Assembly: GCF_029541745.1 (NCBI RefSeq)
Contig: NZ_CP089746.1
Location: 5,155,559 to 5,219,558 of the forward strand
Reading direction: 5' to 3'
Origin: Streptomyces sp. LX-29
GTDB lineage: Bacteria > Actinomycetota > Actinomycetes > Streptomycetales > Streptomycetaceae
DNA length: 64,000 bases
Below are positions 3,209 to 17,313 of the stretch, one piece after another (the first letter of the stretch is position 1; every line of letters begins with the position of its first letter). The translations under genes were made by a program, and so were the position numbers. The notes under the pieces are model-generated. The model was not told where the DNA came from, made no database searches, and saw nothing but the letters and a program-made list of their open reading frames with translations.

Positions 3209-3832
3209 CTACGGCGCCCCCAACACCACCCCGCGCCCCGCGAAGAACCGCTCCAGGTCCGCCCAGCCGACGGCCGCGTACTCCTGGGAGTGCCCCGGCA
3301 GCCCGGACGGGTTGTTGAGGCGTACGCCGTCGTCGTCGGCGTCGACCACGAGCACCAGGTGGCCGCCCCGGGCGGGGGGTTGCGGCTCCAGGACGCGGAG
3401 GGAGAAGTGCACGGAGATCATGACCAGCCCGCCGGCGTCCACGGTCCGCCGGATCTCTCCGGCGGTGAGCTCGGGCACCGACCGTGCCCGCATCCCCCAC
3501 CGCGCGCCGACGTACTCGGCGAACGGCTGGTAGATCAGCCCCTTCACCTCGTCGCCGTCGCGTACGTACGCCCCCGCGGCCTCCAGCTCGCGCACCAGCG
3601 GCACCGAGGGCGGTACCGGCAGCCCCCAGTGGTCCAGCGCCATCCGCAGACACGCGACACCGCACATGCGGTGCGCCCAGAAGGCGTACTCCTCCGGGCT
3701 GTCGGCGCCCGACTTCTGCCACAGCGGGTCGTCCAGCGCCGACCTGGCCCCGGTCACGAACTCGGGTACCAGGTCGGCGGATTCCCACTGGGAGTAGTAG
3801 GGAACGGTCGGGCGCGGGGCGGCATGGGTCAT
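3209..3832 (-). CDS. C39-like (papain-fold) cysteine peptidase family protein
   Basis: A 207-residue protein with the layout of C39-like peptidases: PYYSQWES near the N-terminus, the presumed nucleophile in MCGVACLRMALDHWG, and the His-containing strand GGHLVLVVDADDDG followed by LNNPSG. No signal peptide is visible, so it probably acts in the cytosol, or is a non-proteolytic member. The start MTHAAPRP at 3832 is the first that avoids the next gene; the open frame itself runs farther upstream. No convincing ribosome site precedes it, so translation may depend on the neighbouring minus-strand NmrA-type gene ending 31 bp upstream. The substrate is unknown. Confidence 0.7.
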   Translation of the reverse strand: MTHAAPRPTVPYYSQWESADLVPEFVTGARSALDDPLWQKSGADSPEEYAFWAHRMCGVACLRMALDHWGLPVPPSVPLVRELEAAGAYVRDGDEVKGLIYQPFAEYVGARWGMRARSVPELTAGEIRRTVDAGGLVMISVHFSLRVLEPQPPARGGHLVLVVDADDDGVRLNNPSGLPGHSQEYAAVGWADLERFFAGRGVVLGAP

Positions 3833-3863
3833 GGAGGCCAGTGTGCTGCACACGCGGGGGCGG

Positions 3864-4505
3864 TCAGGTGGCGGCCCGCTCGACGCCGATGTGCGTGCGG
3901 TGGTGCCGCGGGGTGTCGATCTCGTCGATGAGGGCGATGGCGAAGTCGGCGTAGGAGACGCGGCTGGCGGCGTCGGCGGGGGCCGTGACATAGCCGCCGG
4001 TCCGCTCCCCCTCGTGGTCGAAGTCGCCGGCGGGGCTGACCACCAGCCAGTCGAGCCCGCCACCCGCCGCCGCCAGCGCGGTCCGGCCCGCCTCGTGCGC
4101 GAGGTAGAACGGGCGGTACTCCTGCGGATATCCGGGGGTGTCCATCAGCGGCGTGCCGGAGGCCGTCTCCAGGATCGACGCCAGGCCGACGAAGACCAGC
4201 CGCCGCACGCCCGCCTCGCCCAGGCCCCGGTCCAACGCCCGTGCGGTGGTGGTGAAGAAGTCGCCGGGCTGGGCGGCGGGGTCGTAGACCGCGGCGACGG
4301 CGGCGTCATGGCCCGCGGCCAGCCGCGCGACGGCCTCCGGATCGGTGACGTCCCCGGCCACCAGCCGGACCCCGTCCGCCGCCGGCTCGGCGTGCCGCCC
4401 CGGCTCCCGTACGACGGCGGTCACCTCGTGCCCGCGTCGGAGCGCCTCCCCGACGGCCGCCCGGCCGGCCCGGCCACCCGCACCGAAAACAACGATCCTG
4501 CCCAT
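3864..4505 (-). CDS. NAD(P)H-binding NmrA/SDR-like reductase
   Basis: A 213-residue atypical short-chain reductase. It begins MGRIVVFGAGGRAGRA, a GxGGxxGxx dinucleotide motif, followed by the TAVVRE strand end that suits NADP. Residues VRRLVFVGLAS and the C-terminal segment DYADFA-like SRVSYADFAIALIDEI are typical of the NmrA/YwnB/quinone-reductase group. AGGAG seven bases before the ATG fixes the start. The gene is divergent from an HxlR-type regulator (4599), the arrangement seen for qorA/qorR-type redox-stress pairs. Likely a cytosolic oxidoreductase for quinones or aldehydes; no specific substrate is supported. Confidence 0.78.
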   Translation of the reverse strand: MGRIVVFGAGGRAGRAAVGEALRRGHEVTAVVREPGRHAEPAADGVRLVAGDVTDPEAVARLAAGHDAAVAAVYDPAAQPGDFFTTTARALDRGLGEAGVRRLVFVGLASILETASGTPLMDTPGYPQEYRPFYLAHEAGRTALAAAGGGLDWLVVSPAGDFDHEGERTGGYVTAPADAASRVSYADFAIALIDEIDTPRHHRTHIGVERAAT

Positions 4506-4598
4506 GAGTTCACTCCTAGCGTTGCGGACCTCGTCCACGTCCTGACCTGCCCCGCACGCTAGTGAGGACCATGGTTACCTCCGGGGTACCGCACTACT
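4506..4598. promoter_or_regulatory. Divergent promoter/operator between NmrA-type reductase and HxlR regulator
   Basis: This 93-bp gap must hold both promoters. It contains an inverted pair CTAGCGT (4516-4522) and ACGCTAG (4556-4562), and a close repeat GGTTACC / GGGTACC just before the HxlR start. These are plausible HxlR-family operator halves, but no binding is demonstrated. Confidence 0.4.
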
Positions 4599-4985
4599 GT
4601 GCCCCTTGTGACCAAGCCACTGGACCCCGAGATGTTCGACGAGCTGTGCCCCTCCGACCTGTCGCCCATCCGGGTGGGCGACAAGTGGGCCGCGATGATC
4701 ATCCGCTGTCTCGAAGAGGGCCCGCGCCGCTTCTCCGAGCTGCGCGTCCCGCTGCACCGCGTCACCGCCAAGGTGCTCACCCAGTCCCTCCGCTCGCTGG
4801 AGCGGGACGGCTTCGTCACCCGCACCGTCCGCACCGAGCCCGCCCGCCACGTCGAGTACGCCCTCACCCCGCTCGGCCGCAGCCTCCTCGGCCCCCTCGA
4901 CGCGGCCTGCGCGTGGGCGGCGGAGCACTGGGACGAACTCATCGACGCCCGCGAGGCGGGGTCCGCCGTGCGGCGGGCGGGCTGA
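4599..4985 (+). CDS. HxlR-family winged-helix transcriptional regulator
   Basis: A 128-residue MarR-like HxlR regulator. The family signature CPSDLSPIRVGDKWAAMII sits near residues 17-35, with the redox-active cysteine position preserved (DELCPS). The winged helix follows: RFSELR, VTAKVLTQSLRSLERDGFVTR and the wing ARHVEYALTPLG. The GTG at 4599 gives MPLVTKPLD; a second GTG at 4608 is an equally possible start and no strong ribosome site separates them. It is divergent from the NmrA-type reductase, its most likely target, and the N-terminal cysteine suggests sensing of quinones, aldehydes or disulfide stress. Confidence 0.85.
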   Translation: MPLVTKPLDPEMFDELCPSDLSPIRVGDKWAAMIIRCLEEGPRRFSELRVPLHRVTAKVLTQSLRSLERDGFVTRTVRTEPARHVEYALTPLGRSLLGPLDAACAWAAEHWDELIDAREAGSAVRRAG

Positions 4986-5017
4986 CGGGCTCAGGGGGCG
5001 GGGTCACCCTTCCGGCC

Positions 5018-5719
5018 TCAGGAGCTGATGAGCCTGCTGTCGAAGCCGGCGCGCAGGAGGCGTTCGTACGCGTCATGGACATCTCCCGGTACGTCCTGCA
5101 CGACGGCGAAGCCGAGTGCCGGGTACTCGATGACCCGTTGCAGGTCCCCCACGAGCATGTCGACGACGAGTTTTTCGTCGCCGATGGACTTGATGTAGTC
5201 GTCGAACTCCAGCGGCTCGGAGGCACAGATGACCTCGACCTCCGGCCAGAGCTTGCGGCACGTGGCGTACGAGCGGCGCTCCATGTACGGCTTGGAGATC
5301 AGAAGCAGCGACTCGACCTCCACGCCGGCCTCGCGCAGTACCTCTCGGGACAGCGTGATGTTCTGGCCGGTGTTGCCGGCCTTGGTTTCCAGCAGGATTG
5401 CTTCGCCGGGCACGCCCAGGTCGAGGGCGTGCTCGCGGTAGTGGACCGCCTCGCCGCGCGGGAAGCGGGCCGCCGTGGTCGGGCTGTTTCCGCCGCTGAA
5501 GACGACGACGGGGAATAGGCCGGCGCCGTAGAGGTCGGCAGTGGTCGTGGCGACATCGAGATCGTGGCTGCCCAGGCCGATGGCCGCCGAGCAGGGGCGC
5601 ACTTCGTGGCCCATCTGGTGATAGCGCCAGATCAGCACGGCGTCGTTCCACTGCTCGTCGGTGATGGTGCGCTCTGCGCGGTCCGGCACGGGGACTCCCT
5701 CGATCATCGCTGCCTTCAC
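5018..5719 (-). CDS. YdcF/ElyC-like DUF218 family protein
   Basis: A 233-residue protein of the DUF218 fold. Recognisable segments are AAIGLGSHDLDVATTTADLY, VVFSGGNSP, ILLETKAGNTGQNITLSRE and LLLISKPYMERRSYATCRKLWP, matching the usual glycine-rich, SGG, ENT and KPYHMRR-type signatures. No membrane segment is present, so it is a soluble member like YdcF rather than the membrane-anchored ElyC group. The GTG start at 5719 forms a GTGA overlap with the stop of the upstream gene; an ATG at 5707 with GAAGG before it is the main alternative. YdcF binds S-adenosylmethionine, but the cellular role is unknown. Confidence 0.75.
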   Translation of the reverse strand: MKAAMIEGVPVPDRAERTITDEQWNDAVLIWRYHQMGHEVRPCSAAIGLGSHDLDVATTTADLYGAGLFPVVVFSGGNSPTTAARFPRGEAVHYREHALDLGVPGEAILLETKAGNTGQNITLSREVLREAGVEVESLLLISKPYMERRSYATCRKLWPEVEVICASEPLEFDDYIKSIGDEKLVVDMLVGDLQRVIEYPALGFAVVQDVPGDVHDAYERLLRAGFDSRLISS

Positions 5720-6108
5720 CTCGACACGAGGGCCCGCGGGTCGTCGTACGACCGCCGGATTCCCTCGATGCTGCGGAGCTGGTGGCTCAGGCCGTGGTGG
5801 GAGGCCATGCGCGCCACGTCGTCGAGGACGGTCAACCCATCATCGCGGGTGGCCGGGTCGGACAGAAGGATGTGCGTACGGCGCCGCAGGTCGTGCAGCA
5901 GTATGTACCCGGGGCGTCGACCCGCCCTGGGTACGCCCCCAACGGCTCGTTCCATCTCCCACTCGGCGCGCTCGGCGGCCGCCGCCAGGTCCCACCGGGA
6001 GGGCCTCCGGTCGGCGGGCGGGAGGACGAGGTCTGCACGGCTGGCGTTGGACGGCCCGCCGAAGGCCAGACCGAGACTGACCCACCGCCCGCCCCATCGC
6101 CCGGTCAC
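5716..6108 (-). CDS. Hypothetical protein, 130 residues
   Basis: I do not recognise a family. The start at GTG 6108 is chosen because GAGGGG lies seven bases upstream and because the GTG overlaps the TGA of the upstream small open frame as GTGA. An open frame extends to 6195 but that extension is Arg/Ala/Gly-rich and looks non-coding. The C-terminal half is protein-like: SRWDLAAAAERAEWEMERAVGG, then GYILLHDLRRRTHILLSDPATRDDGLTVLDDVARMASHHG. The stop overlaps the GTG of the YdcF-like gene, so this forms part of a tightly packed minus-strand operon reading 6779 to 5018. Confidence 0.5.
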   Translation of the reverse strand: MTGRWGGRWVSLGLAFGGPSNASRADLVLPPADRRPSRWDLAAAAERAEWEMERAVGGVPRAGRRPGYILLHDLRRRTHILLSDPATRDDGLTVLDDVARMASHHGLSHQLRSIEGIRRSYDDPRALVSR

Positions 6109-6221
6109 CGGCAGACCCCTCGCGCCGCGCGGCGCGCCTGGAGCAGCGTCCGCCCGACCGGGCACCCGGTGGCCGACCGCGCGCAGGCAGCGCACTCGGT
6201 GAGATGCGTGATCGCCGCCCG
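6105..6221 (-). other. Start-less CxxC open frame continuing the upstream gene
   Basis: Directly after the TGA of the 6222-6779 gene, in the same frame, the sequence stays open for 38 codons and encodes THLTECAACARSATGCPVG followed by a basic helix. The CxxC plus CP-G pattern is the kind found in small Streptomyces zinc-binding proteins. The frame ends in TGA overlapping the GTG of the next gene. It has no ATG, GTG or TTG of its own. It may be a gene with a rare start, a former C-terminus cut off by a nonsense change, or a read-through product. Confidence 0.35.
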
Positions 6222-6779
6222 TCAGGTCCGCCGTTCCTCCCGGCTCCGCTGCGTGGCGGGGAGGTCGGCGAGCGGATCGGACTGCGGCGGGAAGTACGGG
6301 GCGCAGTCCGGACAGGCGTAGTGCGTGCGGCCGCCGTTGCCGCCGTGCACGAGGGCGACGGTGACCGGCCGCCCGGTCATCCGCTGGCAGCGCAGGCAGA
6401 CCTTCACCGAGGCGTGCGCGGTCCGCAGCGCGGAGTGCAGCCGCCCCGCGTCGGTGAGCCGCCCCTCCCGCGCCGGGACGACCCTCCAGTGCGGCCCCGG
6501 CCCATACGTCCGCTCCACCGGCGGCACCGCCACATACGCCCCAAGGCTCAGCACCCGCTGAATCGTCCAGTCACCGGCGACCCCGGGCGCCACCAGCCAG
6601 TACCAGACGGCCCCGTAGGTGTCCTCGATGACCGGCCCGCTGTTCCCACCGAGGAGCGCCAGCGCGCGCTGGCCGATGAGACTCGGCACCTTGACGGCAT
6701 CCCACCACCGCCCGGCGGGCTGCGCCTCGATGTCGGGGCCGTGGGGTGGGTTCCATGGGTGGGGGGTGTTGACATGCAT
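6222..6779 (-). CDS. Hypothetical protein with zinc-ribbon-like cysteines, 185 residues
   Basis: No family is recognised with confidence. The protein starts MHVNTPHP (ATG 6779, GGGGA upstream) and has a long hydrophobic/aromatic middle, IEDTYGAVWYWLVAPGVAGDW, then two cysteine pairs, VCLRCQRM and YACPDCAPYF, spaced 22 residues apart, which would form a zinc ribbon. It is the first gene of a minus-strand group and is divergent from the XRE-TPR regulator at 6945. Such small proteins often accompany XRE-TPR regulators in Streptomyces genomes. The reading frame continues beyond its stop (see the 6105-6221 entry). Confidence 0.55.
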   Translation of the reverse strand: MHVNTPHPWNPPHGPDIEAQPAGRWWDAVKVPSLIGQRALALLGGNSGPVIEDTYGAVWYWLVAPGVAGDWTIQRVLSLGAYVAVPPVERTYGPGPHWRVVPAREGRLTDAGRLHSALRTAHASVKVCLRCQRMTGRPVTVALVHGGNGGRTHYACPDCAPYFPPQSDPLADLPATQRSREERRT

Positions 6780-6944
6780 GCGATCCCCGGTGTGGTCGGT
6801 GGTACGGGTCGATGACAACTTCGAGGCTCGTCGCACGAGGATGCTCAAGGAATGACCATCGGGGGTTACCGAGGCGGTAATACACTCGTTGCCGCTGCGA
6901 CGACACACCCGCACATGCCAGGATCTTTCCCGGAAGTTGACCCC

Positions 6945-8411
6945 ATGGACGCTTCTGCCACCGGCCCGCTGAGCCTCGAAGTGCTTGACCGAGAAGATTT
7001 GCGCCGAGCCCTCAAGGAGCACGACTTCGCCGCAGCCTTCCTCTTGATCAAGAAGTGGGGTGGGCTGACGCAGAACCGAATTGCGATGGCCTGTCATCTG
7101 ACCCCCGGCAAGGTCAGCAACATCATCAGCGGGCAACAGCAGGTCACGTCTTTCGATGTCCTTTGCCGCATCGCAGACGGACTGCGCATCCCGGGCCACA
7201 TGCTGGGTCTGGCGCCCCGCCCTTGGGAGAGCGAGCAGCAAGAACATCATCAGAGCGTGGAGTTACGAGGCCGTCCGTGCGAGGACGAGATCCCATGGCA
7301 GCCTGAGATTGCCGTGGAACTGGCTACTCAGCTGACGAGGAGCGATCTCGTGATGGACCGACGTGGAGCGAGTCGCGCGCTGGCGGGGGCGGCCCTCACC
7401 GGGGCTGCCTTGCTCGACCCGCTCGAGGGCTGGCTGCGGCCGCCCGGGGACAGAGATGCCCCACGTGTCCGCGGACGTCTCGGAGTTCAGGAGATCGAAG
7501 AACTGGAGATCGCGGCGCGCGCCTTTCGTCGCTGGGATCACCGCTACGGTGGAGGTCTGCGATACAAGGCCGTTCTCGGCCAGCTCAACGAGGTGGCGGA
7601 AGCGCTTGACGAACATCAAGCACCTGCCATTGAACAGCGCCTCTATCAAGTGATGGCCCACCTGGCTGGGGTGGCGGCCACCATGGCGTGGGACTCCAAG
7701 TTTCAGCGTCGGGCCCAGGACTACTACCGCCTCGCCCTGCGTGCGTCGCACGCGGGGAAGGACCCCGTTTTCGGAGCGAACGTGTTGGCGGGGATGGCTC
7801 GCCAGATGCTCTACCGCGATCGACCTCAGGACGCATTGGAACTGGTGCGCTTGGCTCAAGAAGGATCGCGGAACGCGGCGGGACCCCGGGTGCATGCCAT
7901 GCTGCACACACGTGAGGCCTGGGCATTCGCTGCGATGGGGCGTGTGTCCGCCTTTCAGCGTGCTACCGCGCAGGCGGCTGAAGCGTTGGCGGAAGCCGAG
8001 CCGGTCGCCGAGCCGTACTGGATCGCGTACTTCGATGAGGCCGAGCTTGCCGGAGTCACTGGTGGTCGACTCCTGGACTTGGCGCGCAAGGACCCGCGTC
8101 AGCATGCCGAGACGGCGACGGCACAGATTCGTAGGGCGATTGCCGTGCGTGACCGGGATGCAGGGCGTAGCCATGCTCTCGACCGGATCGGGCTCGCGGA
8201 GTGTCGGTTCCTCGCGGGAGACGTGGCAGGGGCGGTCGACGAGACGCACAAGGCAGTCGAGGCTGCTGGCCGTACACGTTCGGGGAGGGTACGAGCTCAG
8301 CTCGGCGAGCTTTATCCGTACACGGTGGGCCACAACGTATCAAGGGGTGTACGGGAAGCGCGGGATAAGATCCGCGGCCTGTTGTTGAGCTGTGAGGAGA
8401 GGCCATGCTGA
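6945..8411 (+). CDS. XRE-family regulator with C-terminal TPR-like domain
   Basis: A 488-residue regulator. Residues 20-85 form an XRE helix-turn-helix (LTQNRIAMACHLTPGKVSNIISG), and residues 160-480 are helical repeats resembling TPR sensor domains. A conserved MDRRGASRALAGAALTGAALL linker lies between them, as in many large Streptomyces XRE regulators. The start MDASATGP has GGAAG eight bases upstream. TTA at codon 107 (7263-7265) marks it as bldA-dependent. Codon use is less GC-biased than in neighbouring genes, suggesting acquisition. The gene overlaps the SLOG-like gene by seven bases (stop 8411, next ATG 8405), so the pair is translationally coupled. TPR regulators of this kind usually bind a small ligand or peptide; the ligand is unknown. 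Confidence 0.8.
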   Translation: MDASATGPLSLEVLDREDLRRALKEHDFAAAFLLIKKWGGLTQNRIAMACHLTPGKVSNIISGQQQVTSFDVLCRIADGLRIPGHMLGLAPRPWESEQQEHHQSVELRGRPCEDEIPWQPEIAVELATQLTRSDLVMDRRGASRALAGAALTGAALLDPLEGWLRPPGDRDAPRVRGRLGVQEIEELEIAARAFRRWDHRYGGGLRYKAVLGQLNEVAEALDEHQAPAIEQRLYQVMAHLAGVAATMAWDSKFQRRAQDYYRLALRASHAGKDPVFGANVLAGMARQMLYRDRPQDALELVRLAQEGSRNAAGPRVHAMLHTREAWAFAAMGRVSAFQRATAQAAEALAEAEPVAEPYWIAYFDEAELAGVTGGRLLDLARKDPRQHAETATAQIRRAIAVRDRDAGRSHALDRIGLAECRFLAGDVAGAVDETHKAVEAAGRTRSGRVRAQLGELYPYTVGHNVSRGVREARDKIRGLLLSCEERPC

Positions 8412-8890
8412 CCATCGCCGTGACCGGCCACATGGACCTGACAGAAGAGAGCGTCCCCCTCGTGCGTGGGGCGCTCGATGAGCTGCTGCGGCCCCGTGCC
8501 GGCGGACTTGTCGGCATCTCGTGCATCGCGAAGGGGGCGGACTCCCTGTTCGCTGAGGCGGTGCTCGCGGTCGGCGGTCGGTTGGTGGTGGTGATTCCGT
8601 CGCGGGACTACCGGCAGGCCAAGGTCAAGCCCGAGCACGCGGCCACGTTCGACCGGCTCGTCGCGGCCGCCGGCGATGTGCTCGTCATGCCCCATGAGAC
8701 GGCGAACCGGCAGGCGTACGAGGCGGCGAACGCCGAGCTGCTCCAGCGGGCCGACCGGCTTGTCGCCGTCTGGAACGGGCAGCCGCCCACGGGGAAGGGC
8801 GGCGGCACGGCCGACGTGGTGCTGGTGGCTCGCGAGGCCGGGATTCCCGTGGATGTGGTCTGGCCGGAAGGCGCTTCGCGACGCGGGTGA
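8405..8890 (+). CDS. SLOG-like Rossmannoid nucleotide-binding protein (copy 1)
   Basis: A 161-residue protein beginning MLTIAVTGHMDLTEES. The TGH motif, GISCIAKGADSLFAEAVLAVGG, the VVVIPSRDYR strand, and the late ADRLVAVWNGQ and GGTADVV segments fit the SMF/DprA-LOG (SLOG) superfamily, which binds nucleotides or nucleotide-derived signals. It is not DprA itself, which is much longer. Translation is coupled to the XRE-TPR regulator upstream. A paralogue with the same motifs is at 9586-10062. Likely cytosolic and possibly the ligand-processing or sensing partner of the regulator; enzymatic activity cannot be judged. Confidence 0.65.
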   Translation: MLTIAVTGHMDLTEESVPLVRGALDELLRPRAGGLVGISCIAKGADSLFAEAVLAVGGRLVVVIPSRDYRQAKVKPEHAATFDRLVAAAGDVLVMPHETANRQAYEAANAELLQRADRLVAVWNGQPPTGKGGGTADVVLVAREAGIPVDVVWPEGASRRG

Positions 8891-9003
8891 GGTCCCGACC
8901 ATGCGCCTTGGGCCTCAATGGACATCGGGGGCTGCCGGAGTCAACCCCACTTGGCGGTGGCTCTGGCCCCGATCAGCGAGCCTGAACGGTAAGGTCCGGA
9001 GCC

Positions 9004-9549
9004 ATGCATCCGGTCACTCGTGACAGTGCACGTCTCACTCTGCGAGAGCTCTCGCTCGACGATGTGGACGACGTCCTCGCCATCTACGGCAGCGCCAAGG
9101 CCACCGAGTATCTGAGTTTCACCCCGCGCTCCCGCGAAGAGGTGGCCGGCATCGTCTCCCGCTCCATCGCCTCCGCGACAGCGAGCCCGCGAGAGGAGTA
9201 CGCGCTGGCCGTGACGCAGCGGGACTCGGCCGACCTGATCGGCTTCGCCCGCCTGGCTCTTGATCCGCACCAGCAGCGCGCGGCCACCATCGGCGCCGCG
9301 CTGCGCCCCGAGGCGTGGGGCGTCGGCTACGGCAGGGAGACCCTGCATCTGCTCTTCGGTCTTGCCTTCGCCGACCTGGATCTCCATCGTGCCTGGGCGG
9401 CCCGATCACCGCTGAACGCGGCCGCCGAGAGGATGATGCTGGCGGCGGGGATGGTCGAGGAGGGGCGCATCCGCGGCCATGTCCATGTGCGGGACGCGTG
9501 GCGAGACTCGATCGTCTACGGGATCCTGCGCGACGAGTGGCAAGGCTGA
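9004..9549 (+). CDS. GNAT-family N-acetyltransferase (RimJ/RimL type)
   Basis: A 181-residue acetyltransferase. The opening RLTLRELSLDDVDDVLAIYG and the FARLALDPHQQRAATIGAALRPEAWGVGYGRETLHLLFGLAF region, containing the acetyl-CoA loop GVGYGRE, are typical of the RimJ/RimL group. The C-terminal NAAAERMMLAAGMVEEGRIRGHVHV is the usual last motif. Members acetylate protein N-termini, amino sugars or antibiotics with acetyl-CoA. It sits between the two SLOG-like genes but has its own start (ATG 9004 after a GGAG-containing leader), and no functional link is shown. Confidence 0.85.
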   Translation: MHPVTRDSARLTLRELSLDDVDDVLAIYGSAKATEYLSFTPRSREEVAGIVSRSIASATASPREEYALAVTQRDSADLIGFARLALDPHQQRAATIGAALRPEAWGVGYGRETLHLLFGLAFADLDLHRAWAARSPLNAAAERMMLAAGMVEEGRIRGHVHVRDAWRDSIVYGILRDEWQG

Positions 9550-9585
9550 AGACGGCGCGAGCAGTCCGCACAGGGAGGTACCACC

Positions 9586-10062
9586 ATGCGCCTGGGCGTC
9601 ACCGGACACCGCGGGTTGCCGGAAGAGACCGGGAAGCTCGTCCGTGCCGCTCTCGCAGCGGAGATCGAACGACACGCGCCCGATGGCCTCGTGGGCGTCT
9701 CCTGCATCGCGGACGGACCCGACGCGTGGTTCGCCCAGGCCGTTCTCGACCACGGCGGTCGGATCGAGGTCGTCATCCCCGCTGCCGAGTACCGCGAAGG
9801 GCTGCCTGAGGACCACCACGCCGTCTACGACGCGCTGATCCAGCGGGCATCCGAGACCCACTCCACGGGGATGACGGAGTCCGACGAGCGGGCCCACATG
9901 GCCGGTAGCGAGATTCTCGTGGATGTCGTGGACGAGCTTGTCGCTGTCTGGGACGGGCAGCCAGCCCGGGGCTACGGCGGCACGGCGGACGTCGTGGCGT
10001 ACGCCGAACGGACAGGCGTCGCTGTCCGGGTGATCTGGCCGGAGGGGGCGACCCGGGATTAA
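9586..10062 (+). CDS. SLOG-like Rossmannoid nucleotide-binding protein (copy 2)
   Basis: A 158-residue paralogue of the 8405-8890 protein. It begins MRLGVTGHRGLPEETG and shares GVSCIADGPDAWFAQAVLDHGG, the VVIPAAEYR strand, VDELVAVWDGQPA and GGTADVVAYAERTGVAVRVIWPEGA. AGGGAGG eight bases before the ATG gives a secure start. A TPR-type protein without an obvious DNA-binding domain follows at 10236, so both copies stand beside a TPR sensor protein. Function is unknown; nucleotide or nucleoside binding is the best guess. Confidence 0.65.
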   Translation: MRLGVTGHRGLPEETGKLVRAALAAEIERHAPDGLVGVSCIADGPDAWFAQAVLDHGGRIEVVIPAAEYREGLPEDHHAVYDALIQRASETHSTGMTESDERAHMAGSEILVDVVDELVAVWDGQPARGYGGTADVVAYAERTGVAVRVIWPEGATRD

Positions 10063-10235
10063 CGCCCAGCGGGGCATGCGACCCCAAAGTCGCCGTCTGG
10101 AGCGGGCCGCCGAACGGTTTGGCGCCTGTTGTCGATCACAATGGCCCCGTGAACGGGATAGGTGCCGCCGACATCCGTCGTAACCGCTCGGGTCGGCGCC
10201 GGCCACGTCCGGCGGGCGGGGCGGGCGAGGGTGGG

Positions 10236-11198
10236 ATGGGGTACGCGGAGGCGGGCGTCCTTCCCGGTCCGCCGCCCGACGGCGCTCACGATGACGGCTA
10301 CGCCCAGCACGTCCGCGAGTTGTCGCAGCGCCTCGTGGTGCTCGACAACGAGCTGAACGACCTGCCGGTCGCGGACATGGCCGTGCACGCCTTCGCTGAG
10401 GTCCGTCGACGGCTCGCCGCAGGCGATCACGCGCGGAGGCGGGGGCGGGACATCCAGGCGGCGGCCGCCGAGTTGGCGGAGGTGGCGGGGTGGGCGCTGT
10501 TCGAGGCGGAGCGGCCGGGGGAGGCGCGGCGGTTGAACCAGGAGGCGCTCCGACTCGCGGAGGCGTCCGGCGACCGTGCGATCGGGCTCCTGACGTTGCA
10601 GAACATGGGCATGCAGGCAGGGTGGCTGGGGGCGCCACGGGAGGAGCTCGCCATCGCGCGGGGCGTCCTGGAGCGGGGGAGGACGTCCCCGCGGGTCGAG
10701 GCGATCTTCCGGGTGCGGGAGGCGAAGGGGCTCGCCGGCTCGGGGCGGGTGGCCGAGGCGGAGCGGGCGTTCCAGCGCGCCCGCTCGCTTCTTCAGGAGA
10801 GTGGGCGGCTCAGCGACCCCTTCTGGGTGTGGTGGGTGACCGCGGACGAGGTCGACGGCCATCACGGCTTCGCCCACCAGGAGTCGGGTGACCCGGCGAA
10901 GGCGGTCCCGTATCTGCGTCGGGCCATGCGCCAGGAGGCGGGGGCGCCGGTCGGCTACCGGAACATCTACGCCGCCCGGCTGCTCTCGTGCCTCCTGGGG
11001 CTCCGGGCGTGGCGGGACGCCGAGGAACTGGCCGAGCAGGTCATTCCCGTGGCGGACGCGACCCCCTCGCGGCGGACGCGCACGCTCTTGGCGGGCGCGG
11101 CCCGGCGCGGGCGGTCGCTGCGCCGGGCCCCGGGCGGTCTGCGCGACGCCCTGCACGAGATCTGCCTGATGTTGGAAGAGGGCCGGAGCGAGCTCTGA
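10236..11198 (+). CDS. TPR-like helical repeat protein, regulator-sensor type
   Basis: A 320-residue helical-repeat protein resembling the C-terminal sensor half of Streptomyces XRE-TPR regulators: VRELSQRLVVLDNELNDLPVADMAV, then several 34-residue-like repeats (for example WALFEAERPGEARRLNQEALRLAEASGD, AVPYLRRAMRQEAG). No helix-turn-helix is visible at the N-terminus, so it is either a stand-alone sensor or an eroded regulator. The start at ATG 10236 (GAGGG upstream) is preferred. A GTG at 10149 would add 29 low-complexity residues. It follows SLOG-like copy 2 with a 173-bp gap. Confidence 0.6.
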   Translation: MGYAEAGVLPGPPPDGAHDDGYAQHVRELSQRLVVLDNELNDLPVADMAVHAFAEVRRRLAAGDHARRRGRDIQAAAAELAEVAGWALFEAERPGEARRLNQEALRLAEASGDRAIGLLTLQNMGMQAGWLGAPREELAIARGVLERGRTSPRVEAIFRVREAKGLAGSGRVAEAERAFQRARSLLQESGRLSDPFWVWWVTADEVDGHHGFAHQESGDPAKAVPYLRRAMRQEAGAPVGYRNIYAARLLSCLLGLRAWRDAEELAEQVIPVADATPSRRTRTLLAGAARRGRSLRRAPGGLRDALHEICLMLEEGRSEL

Positions 11199-11219
11199 TC
11201 GGCCCGCGGGGCGATGCCC

Positions 11220-12629
11220 TCAGGGCGTCTTCCGGGCCGGTGAGGCCACCTCCTGAGAGGCGCGGGCGACGACGAGGAGGAACAGTCCGCAGGCCGTCAC
11301 GAGCAGCCATCCGGGGCGGGAGGCGCGGGCGATGCCGGCGGGGTCGACGTCCGTGACCAGGCCGCCCGCGATGGCGATACCGATCGCTGAGCCGACCTGG
11401 CGGGCGGCGGAGGTGATGGCCCCGGCGACGCCGGCCCGGGACTTCGGCAGGCCGCTGACCGCGGTGTTGGTGATCGGTGCGTTGGCGAAGCCGAACCCGA
11501 TGCCGATGAGCAGGTACGCCAGCAGGAGCAGCAGGACGCCGGTGTGCTGTCCGAGGTTCACCAGGCACAGGCCGCCGGCGGTGGTGAACCCGCCCGCGAG
11601 GAGCAGCGGGCGTCGTGGTCCGAGGCGCCCCACGAGGTTGCCGGACCACGGCGCGCACAGGGTGGCCCCGAGCGCCATGGGCAGGGTCGCCATGCCGGCC
11701 TCCAGCGCCGTCCATCCGCGGGCGTGCTGGAGGTAGAGGGTGTTGAGCAGCAGGCTCACGTTCAGCGCGATGAACACCGCCACGGCGCCCAGCACCGCCG
11801 TGGCGAAGCGCGGTCGTCGGAAGAGCCCGAGGTCCATCAGGGGCTCGTTCTGGCGCAGCTCGACCCGGACGAACCCGGCCGCCGTGGCGACCACCAGCGC
11901 GTAGCCGACCAGGGCCGGCGGCGAGGTCCAACCGATGCGGGGTCCCTCGATGAGGACGCCGATCGAGAGGCCCAGGGTCAGGATGAGCAGGGCCTGGCCG
12001 GGCAGGTCGAGCCGTCGGTCGCGCTGGCCGTGGGACTTGGGTACGAAGACCGCGACCAGGACGAGGGCGGCGACGATGACCGGGGCGTTGATCCAGAACA
12101 CCGATCGCCAGCCGAAGGCCGCTATGAGTGCCCCGCCGGTGACCGGGCCGGCCGCCATGCTGAGCCCGAAGACCGCCGCCCACACGCCGATGGCCCGGGC
12201 TCGCTCCCGGGCGTCGGGCATCGCGTTCACCACGATGGCCAGGGCGACGGGGCTCAGCATCGAGGCCCCGACCCCCTGGAGGGCCCGTGCCGCGACGAGG
12301 AAGCCGAGCGAGGGGGCGACCGCGCAGGCCAGGGAGGCGAGGCCGAAGACGACCAGCCCGCACTGGAAGACGCGACGTCGTCCGAAGCGGTCCGCGAGCG
12401 CGCCGGAGGCGATGAGGAGACCGGCCAGGACCACGGTGTAGGCGTCCACGACCCATTCCAGGTCGCGGGTGCCCACGCCCAGGCCACGCCCGATCTCGGG
12501 CAGGCCCACATTGACGATGGTGGTGTCCAGGCCGACCAGGAACATGCTCAGCGCGCAGACGGCCAGCACCGTCCACCGTCGGCGGGCACTCAGTGTGGCG
12601 GGCTGGGCTGGCGGGGATGTCGTGGTCAC
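11220..12629 (-). CDS. MFS multidrug exporter, DHA2 (14-TM) family
   Basis: A 469-residue major facilitator with about 14 hydrophobic segments. It shows the DHA2 hallmarks LDTTIVNVGLPEIGRGLG in helix 1, the motif A loop GALADRFGRRRVF, ALQGVGASMLSPVALAIV and YLQHARGWTALEAGMATLPMALG. It exports drugs or cell products by proton antiport across the cytoplasmic membrane. The GTG start at 12629 (MTTTSPPAQ) has GAAGG about eight bases upstream. It is divergent from an XRE-cupin regulator, and their shared promoter holds a perfect palindrome, so local repression is likely. It shows no link to the PKS. Confidence 0.88.
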   Translation of the reverse strand: MTTTSPPAQPATLSARRRWTVLAVCALSMFLVGLDTTIVNVGLPEIGRGLGVGTRDLEWVVDAYTVVLAGLLIASGALADRFGRRRVFQCGLVVFGLASLACAVAPSLGFLVAARALQGVGASMLSPVALAIVVNAMPDARERARAIGVWAAVFGLSMAAGPVTGGALIAAFGWRSVFWINAPVIVAALVLVAVFVPKSHGQRDRRLDLPGQALLILTLGLSIGVLIEGPRIGWTSPPALVGYALVVATAAGFVRVELRQNEPLMDLGLFRRPRFATAVLGAVAVFIALNVSLLLNTLYLQHARGWTALEAGMATLPMALGATLCAPWSGNLVGRLGPRRPLLLAGGFTTAGGLCLVNLGQHTGVLLLLLAYLLIGIGFGFANAPITNTAVSGLPKSRAGVAGAITSAARQVGSAIGIAIAGGLVTDVDPAGIARASRPGWLLVTACGLFLLVVARASQEVASPARKTP

Positions 12630-12698
12630 GGGTGCGCCTTCGGTCCGGGATCGTCTGCCGGCCCATGCTCGGATCAGCCGGCGGCGCAGACCCAGCAC

Positions 12699-12717
12699 TT
12701 TTGCGGAAACCGCAAAA
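12699..12717. promoter_or_regulatory. Perfect 8-3-8 palindrome, likely operator of the XRE-cupin regulator
   Basis: TTTTGCGG-AAA-CCGCAAAA is a perfect inverted repeat ending seven bases before the regulator ATG and lying inside the 95-bp divergent promoter with the MFS gene. Its position would block the regulator's own transcription start, so autorepression and control of the exporter are likely. Confidence 0.6.
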
Positions 12718-12724
12718 TGGACCC

Positions 12725-13312
12725 ATGGACGCCAAGGACACGGAACTCGCGGAGACCCTCGACAGCATCGGGCCACGGCTGCGAGCGCTGCGACACGACC
12801 GCGGACTCACCCTCGAGGCGCTCGCGGAGGACACCGGGATCTCCGTCAGCACGCTGTCGCGCCTGGAGTCGGGCAAGCGACGGCCGACGCTCGAACTGCT
12901 CATCCCGCTCGCGCGAGCGCACCGTGTCGCCCTGGACCAGCTGGTCGCGGCGCCCGCCACCGGCGACCCGCGCGTGCACCTGAAGCCCCACCGCAGGGAG
13001 CGCGGAAGCGTCCTCGTGCCCCTGACGCAGTACCCGGGCCGGGTCCAGGTCTTCAAGCAGGTGCTGGCGTACCGTGAGCCGAAGCTCGTGACCCACGCCG
13101 GCTACGAATGGCTCTATGTGCTCGCCGGCGAACTCCGCCTCATCCTCGGCGACCGCGAGTTCGTCCTCCGGCCGGGCGAGGTGGCCGAGTTCGACACCGG
13201 CGAGCCGCACTGGTTCGGCCCCGCCGGCCCCCACGCCGTGGAGATCCTGCATCTGTTCGGCCCCCACGGGGACCAGGCCGTCGTCCGCACCGGCCCGTCG
13301 GCGACGTCCTGA
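12725..13312 (+). CDS. XRE-family regulator with cupin domain
   Basis: A 195-residue regulator. Residues 15-70 form the XRE helix-turn-helix (LTLEALAEDTGISVSTLSRLESGKRRPTLELL). Residues 110-190 form a cupin barrel (THAGYEWLYVLAGELRLILGDREFVLRPGEVAEFDTGEPHWFG). This architecture binds a small effector in the barrel. The ATG at 12725 has almost no leader after the palindrome, so the mRNA may be leaderless or nearly so. It is divergent from the DHA2 exporter it probably controls. Confidence 0.85.
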   Translation: MDAKDTELAETLDSIGPRLRALRHDRGLTLEALAEDTGISVSTLSRLESGKRRPTLELLIPLARAHRVALDQLVAAPATGDPRVHLKPHRRERGSVLVPLTQYPGRVQVFKQVLAYREPKLVTHAGYEWLYVLAGELRLILGDREFVLRPGEVAEFDTGEPHWFGPAGPHAVEILHLFGPHGDQAVVRTGPSATS

Positions 13313-13314
13313 CC

Positions 13315-13356
13315 CACCACGACGAGTGCACCACGGCGAGTGCACCACGACGAGTC
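13315..13356. repeat. Three tandem 14-bp repeats
   Basis: Two full units, CACCACGACGAGTG (13315-13328) and CACCACGGCGAGTG (13329-13342), and a third differing at its last base follow directly after the stop of the XRE-cupin gene. They lead into a terminator hairpin. Confidence 0.7.
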
Positions 13357-13386
13357 GCCCCGCCGAGGGTTCGACGGGGCGACTCG
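13351..13386. terminator. Hairpin terminator between convergent genes
   Basis: CGAGTCGCCCCG (13351-13362) pairs perfectly with CGGGGCGACTCG (13375-13386) around a 12-base interior that can pair further. It lies between the convergent XRE-cupin and MMPL genes and could serve both directions. Confidence 0.65.
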
Positions 13387-13418
13387 TGCGGCGTGCGGCC
13401 GGCGGCCGCGAGGGCGGA

Positions 13419-15716
13419 CTACCGGCGGCTCGCCACCCGCTCCCGCTCCGCTTCCGTGCCCGCCGGCGCCGCGCCCGCCACCGGGTGGCCCTCCTCGCTG
13501 AGGCCGTAGCGGTCGTGCAGGCGGCGCAGCGGGGCCGGGGCCCACCAGCTGCGGTTGCCGAGGAGGCGCATGGCGGCGGGGAGCAGGATGCCGCGGATGA
13601 GGGTGGCGTCCAGCAGGATGGCGAGCGGGACGCCGAGGCCGAGCGCCTTCATGTAGCTGATGCCCGAGGTGAGCATCACGACGAAGACCAGCGAGAGGAT
13701 GATCGCGGCGTAGGTGACGACCTTGCCGACCCGTTCCAGGCCGGTGGCGACGGCGAGTTGGTTGTCCCCGGTGCGGTCGTACTCCTCCTTGACCCGGGAG
13801 AGGATGAAGACCGCGTAGTCCATGGAGAGGCCGAAGCCCAGCGCCGAGATGAGGATCGGGGTGGTCCAGGTGATCGCCCCGGTGTTGATGAAGTCGCCGA
13901 CGAGCCACTGGAGATGGCCGTCCTGGAAGACGAAGACCAGGGAGCCGAAGGTGGCGCTGAGGCTGAGGGCGCTGAGGGCCATGGCCATCAGGGGCAGCAG
14001 CAGGCTGCCGGTGAGCAGGAAGAGCAGCACATAGGTGCCGACGGCCAGGATGCCCAGGGCGTAGGGGAGCCGCTCCTTGAGCAGGTCGAAGGTGTCGACG
14101 GAGATGGCGGGCTGGCCGCCGACGGTGATGGCGAAGGGGGCGTCGGCGTCCCGGACCCGGTCCACGATGGCCTCGCCGCGCTCCGAGAGTCCGTCGACGG
14201 CCGGGACCACGGACAGATACGTGGCGTCCTCGCCGGCGTAGCGGCGGTTGAGCTCGCCGGGCGGGACGACGCGCTCACCCTTGGCGTAGGAGCCGGTGAG
14301 GGCGTCCACGCGGGCCACGTCGGGCAGCCGGGAGAGGGTGGCCGCGTAGTCGGCGATCTCCTTCTCGCGCCCCGCGGGGTCGCCGGTGTTCCGTGCGACG
14401 ACCTGGAGGGCCTGCGCCTCGCGGTTGTTGAAGTTCTCCTGGACGACCTTGGCGACCTGCGCGGACTGGGCGCTCTTGGGGAGGATCTGCTCGTCCGGGA
14501 GGCGCATCTTCAGGTCGACGACGGGGGAGGCGAGGAGCGCCATCAGGACCAGGACGCCCGCGGCCAGCGGGGCGGGGCGGCGCATGACGACGACCGCCAG
14601 GCGGTGCCAGAAGCCCTGCCCCTCGGCCGGTTCCGCGGCGGCACCGGCCGATGCCGCCGACCCGGCCGCCTCGGCCCGCGGCTTGCGGCGGATCAGCCGC
14701 AGCCTGTCGATCCGCGGGCCGGCCCAGGCCAGCAGCGCGGGGACGATGACCAGGGTGGCGAGGGCGGCGGCCAGGGTGGTGACGGTGCCGCCGACCGCGA
14801 TGGACTGGAACATCCCGAAGGGGATGACCATGAGGGAGAGGAAGGCCACCGCCAGGGTGACCGCGGAGAAGGTGACCGTCCGGCCGACCGTCCGCATGGT
14901 GGCGCGGATGGCGTCCGGGATCTCGGTGCCGTCCCTCTTCAGCTCCTCGCGGTAGCGGGTGATGAACAGCAGGCTGTAGTCGATCGCCAGGCCCAGGCCC
15001 AGGAAGGTGGTGATGTTGACCAGCAGGTTGTTGGCGTCGAAGACGAAGGTCAGCGCGAACATCAGACCGAAGACCAGCAGCATCGTGGCGAGGGCCACCG
15101 CCAGCGGCAGCGCGGCGGCGACCAGCGAGCCGAAGATGACCACGAGGACGATCAGCACCAGCGGGAAGACCAGGGACTCCGCCTTGGAGGCGTCCTTGGC
15201 GGCCTGCTCGGTGTTCTCGAAGTTCATCAACGCCAGCCCGCCGAGCTTCACATCGAGCCCGTGGACGGTGCCGGTGTACTTCTCCTTCAGGCCCTCGATC
15301 CGGTCGTTGACCTGGTCGAAGTCGCCGAGCACGGTGCCGGTGACCAGGGCCTGCTCGCCGGACTCGCCGCGCAGCGAGGCCGCCTTGCCCGCCGACCAGT
15401 ACGAGGCCACGTTGCCCAGGTCCGGGTTGTCCGCCAGCTCCTTCGTCAGCTTGAGCCCGGCGGCGGTGACGGCCGGGTCGTCGACTCCCCGCGAGTCCTC
15501 GACGACGAGGGAGAGGTTGGGTCGGCCCTGGCCGAACTCCTTCTCCAGGACGGACTGGGTGGTGGCCGACTCGGTGTCGTCGTTCTCGTAACCGCCCATC
15601 GTCAGACGGTCGGTGAGGCCCATGGAGCCGCCGCCCACGCAGAGGACGATGATCAGCACGGCCAGCAGAATCTTCTTCGGCCTGGGGAGAATCAGGCTCG
15701 CTAACCTGTCGAGCAT
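13419..15716 (-). CDS. MMPL-family (RND superfamily) transporter
   Basis: A 765-residue RND/MmpL exporter. It has the classic doubled plan: one N-terminal membrane helix (KKILLAVLIIVLCVGGG), a large extracytoplasmic loop, a block of five helices including FLGLGLAIDYSLLFITRYREEL, a second loop, and a repeat block with the matching LGFGLSMDYAVFILSRVKEEY. The paired GLAIDY/GLSMDY motifs carry the proton-relay aspartates. The ATG at 15716 follows AGGAGA by about nine bases. Codon 5 is TTA (15702-15704), so expression is probably bldA-gated from the outset. The upstream region holds an inverted repeat that looks like a repressor operator. Likely exports a lipid or polyketide; the substrate is unproven. 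Confidence 0.88.
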   Translation of the reverse strand: MLDRLASLILPRPKKILLAVLIIVLCVGGGSMGLTDRLTMGGYENDDTESATTQSVLEKEFGQGRPNLSLVVEDSRGVDDPAVTAAGLKLTKELADNPDLGNVASYWSAGKAASLRGESGEQALVTGTVLGDFDQVNDRIEGLKEKYTGTVHGLDVKLGGLALMNFENTEQAAKDASKAESLVFPLVLIVLVVIFGSLVAAALPLAVALATMLLVFGLMFALTFVFDANNLLVNITTFLGLGLAIDYSLLFITRYREELKRDGTEIPDAIRATMRTVGRTVTFSAVTLAVAFLSLMVIPFGMFQSIAVGGTVTTLAAALATLVIVPALLAWAGPRIDRLRLIRRKPRAEAAGSAASAGAAAEPAEGQGFWHRLAVVVMRRPAPLAAGVLVLMALLASPVVDLKMRLPDEQILPKSAQSAQVAKVVQENFNNREAQALQVVARNTGDPAGREKEIADYAATLSRLPDVARVDALTGSYAKGERVVPPGELNRRYAGEDATYLSVVPAVDGLSERGEAIVDRVRDADAPFAITVGGQPAISVDTFDLLKERLPYALGILAVGTYVLLFLLTGSLLLPLMAMALSALSLSATFGSLVFVFQDGHLQWLVGDFINTGAITWTTPILISALGFGLSMDYAVFILSRVKEEYDRTGDNQLAVATGLERVGKVVTYAAIILSLVFVVMLTSGISYMKALGLGVPLAILLDATLIRGILLPAAMRLLGNRSWWAPAPLRRLHDRYGLSEEGHPVAGAAPAGTEAERERVASRR

Positions 15717-16074
15717 GTCGGAGCTCTCCTGGGATCCTGGGATGCGGGACGGACTGTTCTGAAGTTCCGGTACGCCTTGTTCTGAAGCTATGAAACAGCA
15801 TGTACCAGAGATTGGTTTCGGTGCAAGCTGTTCTATAGGCGTGGCGCGCGTCCGCCGCGCGAGCCGGCGCCCTCTCGCGCAGATTCGGCCCCTCAGCGCT
15901 CCGTGGAAGTGCCGTGACGGGCCGTCGTCCGCCCGCGGGCCCGTTGTGGCCCGCGGGCCCGTTGTGGCTGGTCGCGCCCACGCGGCGGAGCCGCACATGT
16001 CACGGCCCGCACCCCTTCAGGGCGCTGCCGAACGGCGGCCGACGTCACCGGAGCCGCTGAGGGGCCCGGGGTCC
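15717..16074. promoter_or_regulatory. MMPL promoter region and non-coding spacer
   Basis: This 358-bp stretch has no supported gene. Its MMPL-proximal part has a direct repeat TGTTCTGAAG at 15755-15764 and 15778-15787 and a longer inverted repeat at 15788-15838. Its distal part has a duplicated GC-rich unit (GTGGCCCGCGGGCCCGTT-like, about 15930-15967) and then the tail of the BenE transcript. Confidence 0.55.
15788..15838. promoter_or_regulatory. Long inverted repeat, candidate repressor operator for MMPL gene
   Basis: CTATGAAACAGCATGTACC (15788-15806) and GGTGCAAGCTGTTCTATAG (15820-15838) are inverted copies matching at 15 of 19 positions around a 13-base centre. A very similar half-site is found at 34187-34205 before the hemerythrin-like gene. 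Confidence 0.5.
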
Positions 16075-17313
16075 CTAACCCCGCTCCGACCCCCGCCGTG
16101 ACAGCGCCAGATGCGTCGCCACCCCGGCCACCAGCCCCCAGCAGGCCGAGCCGACGCCCCAGAGCTCCACCCCGGAAGCCGTCATCAGAAAGGTGACCAG
16201 GGCGCCGTCCCGATGGGCCTCCTCCCCGGTCGCGGCCGCCAGCGCCCCACCCAGCGCGCCCAGCAGGGCGATGCCCGCGATGGCCGCCACCAAATCCGCC
16301 GGCAGCGCCGTGAACACCGCGATGAACGTGGTGCCGAACACCCCGACCAGCAGGTAGCAGACGCCGGCGACCACCCCCGCCGCATACCGCTTGTCCGGGT
16401 CCGGGTGCGCCTCCCGCCCGGTGCAGATCGCCGCCGTGATCGCGGCCAGGTTGATGGCGTGGGCGCCCACCGGGGCCAGGGCGGCGGAGGCCAGCCCGGT
16501 GGTGGTGACGGTGCGACCGGAGCGGGCCGCGTCCATCCGATAGCCCGCCGCGCTCAACACCGCGATGCCCGGGGCGTTCTGCGAGGCCATCGTCACCAGG
16601 AACAGCGGCAGCCCGAGCCCCACCACGGCGTCCCAGGAGAACGCGGGCGCGGTGAACACCGGACGGGCCACGTCCGGATGGACCCCGCCGAAGGAGACGT
16701 CCCCGGTCAGCAGGGTCCAGCCGACGCCGGCCAGCAGCGCCCACGCCGTCGCCCAGCGCGGCGCGAACCGGCGCCCCACCACATAGGCGGCCAGCATCAG
16801 GGCCACCAGCGCGGGCGCGTCCTCGGTGGCCGTGAAGAGGTCGATGCCGAACTTCACCAGGATGCCGGCGAGCATCGCCGCCGCCACCGACTGCGGCAGC
16901 AGCCGCATCACCGTGCCGAACAGGCCGGTCGCCCCGACCAGCACGGTCAGCGCGGCGGCCACCAGATAGGCGCCGACGGCCTGGTCGTACGGATGGTCCG
17001 TCAGCGCCGTCACCAGCAGCGCCGCGCCCGGCGTCGACCACGCGGTGACGACCGGGACGCGGTAGGCCAGGCTCAGCAGCACGCAGGTCAGCCCGCTGCC
17101 GATGGATATCGCCCAGACCCAGGACTCCAGCCGGGCGTCGCTCAGTCGGGCCGCCTCCGCCGCCGTGAAGACCACGGCCATCGGGCCCGCGTACGAGACG
17201 ATGACCACGATCAACCCCGCGACGGCGGTCGAGACCGACCAGGCGGAGGGGGACGAGGTCGGGGGCGGGGCGGTGGAAGCGGAAGAGGCCGTCAGGTTTT
17301 CAGAATCACTCAT
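16075..17313 (-). CDS. BenE-family benzoate/aromatic-acid membrane transporter
   Basis: A 412-residue polytopic protein with about 11-12 hydrophobic segments. It fits the BenE group: SYAGPMAVVFTAAEAA in the first helices, TAWSTPGAALL, and the late NAPGIAVLSAAGYR and GAHAINLAAITAAICTGREAHPDPDKRY segments. Members carry benzoate-like acids by proton symport. The ATG (17313-17311) shares a base with the TGA of the upstream UbiA gene (TGATG), so the two are translationally coupled. The coupling suggests the transported compound is a substrate or product of the prenyltransferase pathway. Confidence 0.82.
   Translation of the reverse strand: MSDSENLTASSASTAPPPTSSPSAWSVSTAVAGLIVVIVSYAGPMAVVFTAAEAARLSDARLESWVWAISIGSGLTCVLLSLAYRVPVVTAWSTPGAALLVTALTDHPYDQAVGAYLVAAALTVLVGATGLFGTVMRLLPQSVAAAMLAGILVKFGIDLFTATEDAPALVALMLAAYVVGRRFAPRWATAWALLAGVGWTLLTGDVSFGGVHPDVARPVFTAPAFSWDAVVGLGLPLFLVTMASQNAPGIAVLSAAGYRMDAARSGRTVTTTGLASAALAPVGAHAINLAAITAAICTGREAHPDPDKRYAAGVVAGVCYLLVGVFGTTFIAVFTALPADLVAAIAGIALLGALGGALAAATGEEAHRDGALVTFLMTASGVELWGVGSACWGLVAGVATHLALSRRGSERG

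Follow-up and report, generated by a model that had tools for sequence, protein, structure and literature searches.

Conservation of an HTH-TPR regulator/SLOG gene pair with a candidate palindromic operator in Streptomyces

We analyzed a stretch of 64,000 nucleotides from Streptomyces sp. LX-29 (contig NZ_CP089746.1, positions 5,155,559 to 5,219,558; here referred to as the window), whose genome is a single contig of 8.23 Mb. The window contains two paralogous SLOG genes, designated SLOG-B and SLOG-D, whose products are 46–47% identical. As an earlier note on this DNA had pointed out, each lies beside a gene for a tetratricopeptide repeat (TPR) protein. The one before SLOG-B encodes a helix-turn-helix (HTH) TPR regulator of the NsdA family. 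We consider it somewhat better than an even chance that this regulator and SLOG-B form one autoregulated two-gene operon, exchangeable as a cassette, with a palindrome as its candidate operator. At the level of sequence, comparison among loci shows that the operon is conserved, that the place of the palindrome is nearly fixed, and that an intact SLOG gene can persist where the regulator has been lost or exchanged for another.

Conservation of the gene pair and its candidate operator

We compiled 113 SLOG loci, namely 80 kept of 112 relatives found in a genome collection and 33 from a survey of 61 genomes; counts on the 113 include duplicate records (L086/L068, L087/L060 and L085/L051). The SLOG family is present in 22 of the 61 surveyed genomes, and the named nearest relatives in the SLOG search were mostly Streptomyces. 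In 49 of the 113 loci an NsdA-type match lies directly upstream on the same strand, its length ranging from the full regulator to 27 residues. On the tree, such regulator links are found in both SLOG clades and also in Nocardia, Nocardiopsis and Promicromonospora. In the reverse search, which started from the regulator (61 genomes of the genus, E 1e-60), 15 genomes had a match. All six full-length orthologues (65% identity or more, the window copy included) precede a SLOG gene or are fused to it; a seventh, truncated orthologue has no SLOG gene following, and none of the eight distant matches (about 41% identity) has one within about 1.5 kb. The earlier suggestion of a SLOG/TPR-regulator system is supported, as a conserved gene pair, for the first pair but not for the second, whose adjacency is not conserved. 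Moreover, at least three records of a plasmid collection contain a SLOG match and a regulator match within about 100 bp.

In one genome (L060, the same record as L087) regulator and SLOG share a single reading frame, with a changed linker and with the GTG kept at the SLOG start. The model of the fused protein has no confident contact between the domains (pTM, the predicted template modelling score, 0.48), and its TPR part gave matches of weak E-value to general TPR proteins, including RapF, NprR and PlcR. Coming from one genome and showing no confident contact, the fused frame carries little weight as proof of an interaction.

Words common to the upstream regions led to the palindrome TTACCG-N3-CGGTAA. 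The exact palindrome occurs once in the window, and up to two mismatches give 3 matches against 0.39 expected. We then scored the loci for the operator in the interval from -76 to -92 relative to the regulator match, allowing one mismatch. Of the 30 loci whose regulator is intact, 26 have it (two records counted twice), as do 2 of the 14 with a broken or partial one. It is absent from all 51 loci that lack any trace of the regulator and from all 18 with a fragment. Three loci classed as broken by one stop (L020, L057 and L065) were taken as intact in this count, their profile matches being full-length and stop-free. The 1.54 Mb of loci, some of them overlapping, hold 26 exact matches, all before such regulators, including the truncated one of L155. 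Information per column (25 sequences, two duplicates omitted) was 1.89 bits in the arms, 0.74 in the spacer, and 0.89 and 0.58 in the flanks. Judged from these loci, the candidate operator tracks the regulator, not the SLOG gene.

Loss of the regulator and constraint on SLOG

In 18 of the 113 loci, two of them one record, the regulator is reduced to a short fragment before the SLOG gene. The best fragment reaches the C-terminal end of the regulator (query residue 480 or later) in 14 of these loci. Its end lies 8–34 bp 5' of the SLOG start in 15, and at 123 and 141 bp in two others, while in L046 it overlaps SLOG by 11 bp. In two of the 18 loci the match is weak (E 2e-4 and 7e-4), and the same search downstream of SLOG found no fragment in 108 regions. 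The SLOG gene is stop-free in 17 of the 18 loci; in the eighteenth, L046, a stop precedes the start codon and the last residues differ. The median ratio of nonsynonymous to synonymous substitution rates (dN/dS) of SLOG is the same beside an intact regulator (0.225, 24 sequences) and beside a fragment (0.223, 15 sequences); where the regulator is absent, it is 0.282 (23 sequences). These values were calculated on L005–L084 only, with the broken class omitted, from pairs of dS 0.05–1.5 that are not independent. The regulators are left as fragments and the dN/dS of SLOG is unchanged; therefore, the retention of SLOG under apparent constraint argues against both a toxin-antitoxin system and an obligate two-part switch, and is the strongest evidence against them.

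Motifs and predicted fold of the SLOG proteins

The AlphaFold model of SLOG-B has a mean pLDDT (predicted local distance difference test) of 94.9 and a pTM of 0.91. A Foldseek search with it returned YpsA first (E 5.9e-08), followed by DprA and ShosA, with LOG and molybdenum cofactor carrier proteins lower in the list. The best structural match is Bacillus subtilis YpsA (PDB 2nx2; Z 18.5, root-mean-square deviation 2.5, 153 residues). The predicted structure thus confirms for SLOG-B the SLOG fold that had been proposed earlier, Rossmann-like and in the YpsA-like clade, and from this fold we infer that SLOG-B may bind a nucleotide-type ligand.

In an alignment of 41 chosen relatives, residues G8, H9, G44, D46 and T135 are invariant, and T7 and G134 are kept in 40; the motifs named in the earlier note are indeed conserved. 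The alignment omits a misread second match of L046 and the distant third SLOG paralogue of the genome (L003), and gained L079 and L083 relative to an earlier one. The third paralogue lies 1.8 Mb off, is 37% identical, lacks the GxD and has no HTH-TPR match within 4 kb. A GxD/E signature of the predicted pocket has been described for YpsA (PMC6459960), and the GxD of SLOG-B (G44, D46), present in all 41 rows, fits it.

Pfam and NCBIfam scans of SLOG-B and SLOG-D gave nothing above cut-off; the Pfam YpsA model had no match to SLOG-B and reached 11.8 bits for SLOG-D, with a cut-off of 27.7. Among the 41 relatives, sub-threshold matches to SLOG families comprised DprA in 14, YpsA in 6 (E 0.1 or better, best 1e-4) and YAcAr in 5; non-SLOG families also matched below threshold, the commonest in 9. 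A PDB sequence search gave six weak matches, the best being DprA (E 0.12). As for annotations, 11 of 14 homologues in Microbacterium phages (about 33% identity) are designated as DprA-like and 3 as single-stranded DNA-binding, and those in the plasmid collection, among the 20 listed of 34, are hypothetical or without annotation.

We also considered a LOG phosphoribohydrolase, whose motif we take to be PGGxGTxxE with a catalytic Glu. This identity was rejected, as SLOG-B has no PGG and the catalytic Glu is missing; the position of the Glu in GT-x-E is held by D, S and T in 33, 7 and 1 of the 41 rows. Profile alignment to 27 LOG rows, chosen by PGG.GT (the 3 printed ones read GTLEE), likewise yielded nothing meaningful (24 columns, probability 0.8%).

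The HTH-TPR regulator

The regulator scores 277.5 bits with the NCBIfam model NsdA_fam_reg (NF053720; cut-off 75), and stays below the equivalog models of NsdA (NF050130; 246.3 vs 830 bits) and NsdB (226 vs 700 bits). In the 22 genomes with the SLOG family, NsdA-type HTH-TPR matches number from 9 to at least 48 per genome. A studied NsdA homologue binds DNA in chromatin immunoprecipitation sequencing and electrophoretic mobility shift assays and controls differentiation and antibiotic production (PMC12243394); we found no signal named for it.

The features of this gene described in the earlier note are real. The SLOG-B start at 8405 and the regulator stop TGA at 8409–8411 make an overlap of seven bases, and the regulator has a TTA codon and atypical codon use, with a GC content at third codon positions of 0.71 against 0.84–0.91 in the next four genes. 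The seven-base overlap is special to the window copy. Five of the 49 homologous junctions are negative (three of -4; the other two are one fused record counted twice), while 36 have gaps of 0–30 bp and 8 have longer ones. A TTA codon is present in 15 of the 49 homologous regulator matches.

Other NsdA-family genes of the same genome (L126, L133, L134, L139 and L145) adjoin small enzyme genes, which are GNAT (twice) and APH by Pfam, and Nudix and HAD by eye. In L096, an NsdA-type regulator and a SLOG gene have a 2'-5' RNA ligase-like gene (4504–5148, minus strand) between them, which is suggestive of cyclic-phosphate or ADP-ribose chemistry. In L021, a Nudix gene (3728–4192) is flanked by two SLOG genes.

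Proposed mechanism and alternative explanations

In the autoregulated operon that we favor, a dimer of the regulator would bind the palindrome and set its own level and that of SLOG, perhaps also that of the divergent gene. SLOG would be the working part, which may bind or process a nucleotide-type metabolite and would work without this regulator. Its YpsA-like clade points to derivatives of NAD or ADP-ribose; YpsA-like SLOG domains have been linked to such signals (PMC9503650). The TPR domain is probably the sensor, responding to a small molecule or partner tied to SLOG activity by releasing the operator. The pair would move and be exchanged as a cassette. Several points weigh against this explanation. 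Four of the 30 loci with an intact regulator have no palindrome, and the palindrome could serve another factor that travels with the regulator. C1-type HTH-TPR regulators, recognized by our own profile, are near 20 of the 113 SLOG loci; 14 have SLATT, FxsB/RyR or caspase-like genes nearby, and in 30 none of the contexts looked for was present. A sigma-70 scan of positions 6200–11300 gave no promoters and one terminator-like site, about the chance level. Finally, a SLOG gene kept after regulator loss also fits takeover by another regulator.

The earlier note had read sensor and regulator as one switch. On this view, SLOG would sense or produce a nucleotide signal and exert direct control over the HTH-TPR regulator, which would be the output. 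The linkage is tight and conserved, one genome has both in a single frame, and in Thoeris a sensor role belongs to SLOG domains (PMC9503650). However, this reading is weakened by the 18 fragment loci, since the constraint on SLOG is equal beside a fragment and nearly equal without any regulator, and the fused frame, with its changed linker, its GTG and a model without confident contact, is found in one genome only; we regard the one-switch reading as unlikely. A SLOG toxin restrained by an HTH-TPR antitoxin would agree with a two-gene operon with an HTH partner and with the patchy distribution of the family, but the loss of SLOG expected without the antitoxin did not occur, SLOG being stop-free with unchanged dN/dS beside nearly all fragments. 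Moreover, XRE-DUF397 pairs, once proposed as toxin-antitoxin systems, did not behave so (PMC10364602), and we judge a toxin-antitoxin function very improbable.

The pair might also be part of an anti-phage defence based on nucleotide signalling. SLOG genes are patchy and exchanged, and among the 33 survey loci more distant family members have genes for SLATT (7), FxsB radical SAM with TrkA-RyR (5) or caspase-like proteins (2) at a distance of 4 kb or less; SLATT has been linked to ADP-ribose-regulated membrane effectors (PMC9503650). However, none of the six window proteins scanned had a SLATT, SIR2 or TIR match, and on the tree these partners accompany other branches. PADLOC found nothing relevant in four proteins, its one match being of the regulator to an HTH model (E 0.0032). 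A defence role thus seems to us distinctly improbable for the window pair.

The distant SLOG homologues of L099–L104 and L107–L114 are near genes for FxsB radical SAM/HExxH, FxsC-like TIR, TrkA-RyR channel or SLATT proteins, and these neighbourhoods possibly represent a peptide-linked conflict system. Distant members are near SLATT or FxsB/TIR-like genes, and so the family may be one of conflict systems, with the window pair as a regulatory branch.

Neighbouring genes and the second pair

The features around the pair are listed in Table 1.

Table 1. Features of the region in window coordinates
Feature	Position	Strand	Remarks
DIV gene (our label)	6222–6779	-	about 185 aa; divergent from the regulator; sub-threshold GRF-like Zn ribbon
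Candidate operator TTACCG-AGG-CGGTAA	6866–6880	+	79 bp 5' of the regulator start
NsdA-family HTH-TPR regulator	6945–8411	+	488 aa; TTA codon at 7263
SLOG-B	8405–8890	+	single-domain SLOG protein, 161 aa
GNAT acetyltransferase	9004–9549	+	between SLOG-B and SLOG-D
SLOG-D	9586–10062	+	second paralogue
TPR protein, NsdA family	about 10149–11198	+	without HTH

The GNAT gene is probably not part of the unit, because no homologue (E 1e-3) was found in the 80 SLOG loci of the genome collection. SLOG-D and the second TPR gene are less than 90 bp apart. In this TPR protein, the NsdA-family model is matched only from position 131 of 432, and an HTH was not detected. Members of the SLOG-D clade elsewhere follow an NsdA-type regulator, whereas SLOG-D here does not. 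The second TPR protein has three homologues in two other genomes (61 searched, E 1e-50 or better), all of them away from SLOG genes. In G082, a genome labelled as the same species, about 2.8 kb separates the two genes and SLOG-D is apparently frameshifted. The second pair (9586/10149) was therefore rejected as a module, its adjacency not being conserved in other genomes. The interval in G082 contains a DUF6879/XRE-DUF5753/DUF397 trio (L164:6829–8658).

Two further stretches are recorded here. A DUF218 gene lies at 5018–5719 on the minus strand, and positions 5010–5873 are missing at the same site in G082. Positions 15887–16000 are GC-rich, give numerous similar short matches in each of the two genomes, and presumably represent a dispersed Streptomyces repeat. 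An Rfam search of window positions 5000–17000 gave no match.

Exchange at the site in a same-species genome

Comparison of G082 with window positions 3209–15896 gave blocks of 89–95% identity, without 5010–5873 and 6756–8919. The latter stretch, with the regulator and SLOG-B, is replaced in G082 by a different HTH-TPR gene that overlaps a flavoprotein gene (PF02441), and G082 keeps a 100-bp stretch (89%) resembling the old regulator/SLOG junction. As a control, window positions 16053–55900 (39.8 kb) are syntenic with G082 at 95–98%, apart from gaps that reach at most 230 bp on the window side and about 360 bp on that of G082.

DIV, to the left of the break, is a multi-copy gene. The window genome has 10 matches and G082 has 12, counts that include partial second matches; its family had no Pfam match above cut-off and no NCBIfam match. 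We examined the neighbourhoods of 22 of 33 matches (the window, L164 and 20 further loci). All 22 have an HTH regulator on that side of DIV, which is of the HTH-TPR type except in L174 (XRE-DUF5753). Seven DIV loci are found in both genomes; the adjacent regulator block differs in three and is kept in four, one with an insertion. One of the three is the window locus. At the 5.34 Mb locus, an NsdA-type gene with GNAT stands against an NsdA-type gene with pterin dehydratase (flanks 95.5% and 94.6%), and at the 5.02 Mb locus the two genomes share the flavoprotein but have different regulators (flanks 96.7% and 91.5%). One kept locus has a regulator with an APH-like kinase gene, and Nudix partners were seen by eye only. 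Among the DIV loci compared, one in the window genome and three in G082 are without a counterpart. An excess of swaps at DIV loci is indicated and not proven, because the control region is a single stretch. Among the 39 SLOG loci in which the regulator match is long, DIV was found divergent in only 13, and it was rejected as a constant part of the pair. At the slot called "locus-2", two other species with the flanking gene (101 genomes searched) had neither DIV nor HTH-TPR.

We tentatively suggest, at a little less than even confidence, that DIV marks dispersed exchange sites in Streptomyces chromosomes, where HTH regulators, often with a partner enzyme, are swapped within species between flanks of about 90–97% identity. 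The partners would include SLOG, GNAT, pterin dehydratase, flavoprotein and perhaps an APH-like kinase and Nudix. The SLOG pair would then be one such exchange cassette, and therefore strains of one species would differ in a small-molecule sensor and modifier. If general, DIV-anchored exchange would let regulation vary rapidly within Streptomyces species.

Comparison with known systems

Among the matches listed in the literature search, no description of this SLOG/HTH-TPR pair was recognized by title or start of abstract. The founding SLOG paper is Burroughs 2015, where an earlier mention of the pair is possible. We regard as new the palindrome, a SLOG gene that outlasts its regulator and the same-site replacement in a same-species genome. 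A conserved partner gene, a candidate operator and natural swaps and losses together make the signal and output of one NsdA-type regulator directly testable.

SLOG-B resembles YpsA (2nx2) in its structure and its GxD/E signature, but is only 14–15% identical, falls below the Pfam cut-off and is placed beside an HTH-TPR regulator. The regulator shares the NF053720 family with NsdA and NsdB, but is far below the equivalog cut-offs, and its SLOG-linked orthologues have a palindrome of their own. With SLOG-SLATT and Thoeris systems the pair shares the SLOG domain, and distant family members are near SLATT genes, but no SLATT effector was matched among the six window proteins scanned; in Thoeris ThsA, SIR2 is fused to SLOG, whereas SLOG-B is a single domain of 161 aa without a SIR2 match. 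The closest studied analogue found is the XRE-DUF397 pair (Scr1/Scr2, WhiJ-type), of which fourteen were studied in S. coelicolor (PMC10364602). There, too, an HTH regulator is followed by a small partner gene, in many copies per genome, but the partner here is SLOG and not DUF397 (no DUF397 match among the same six proteins), and the regulator carries TPRs in place of DUF5753.

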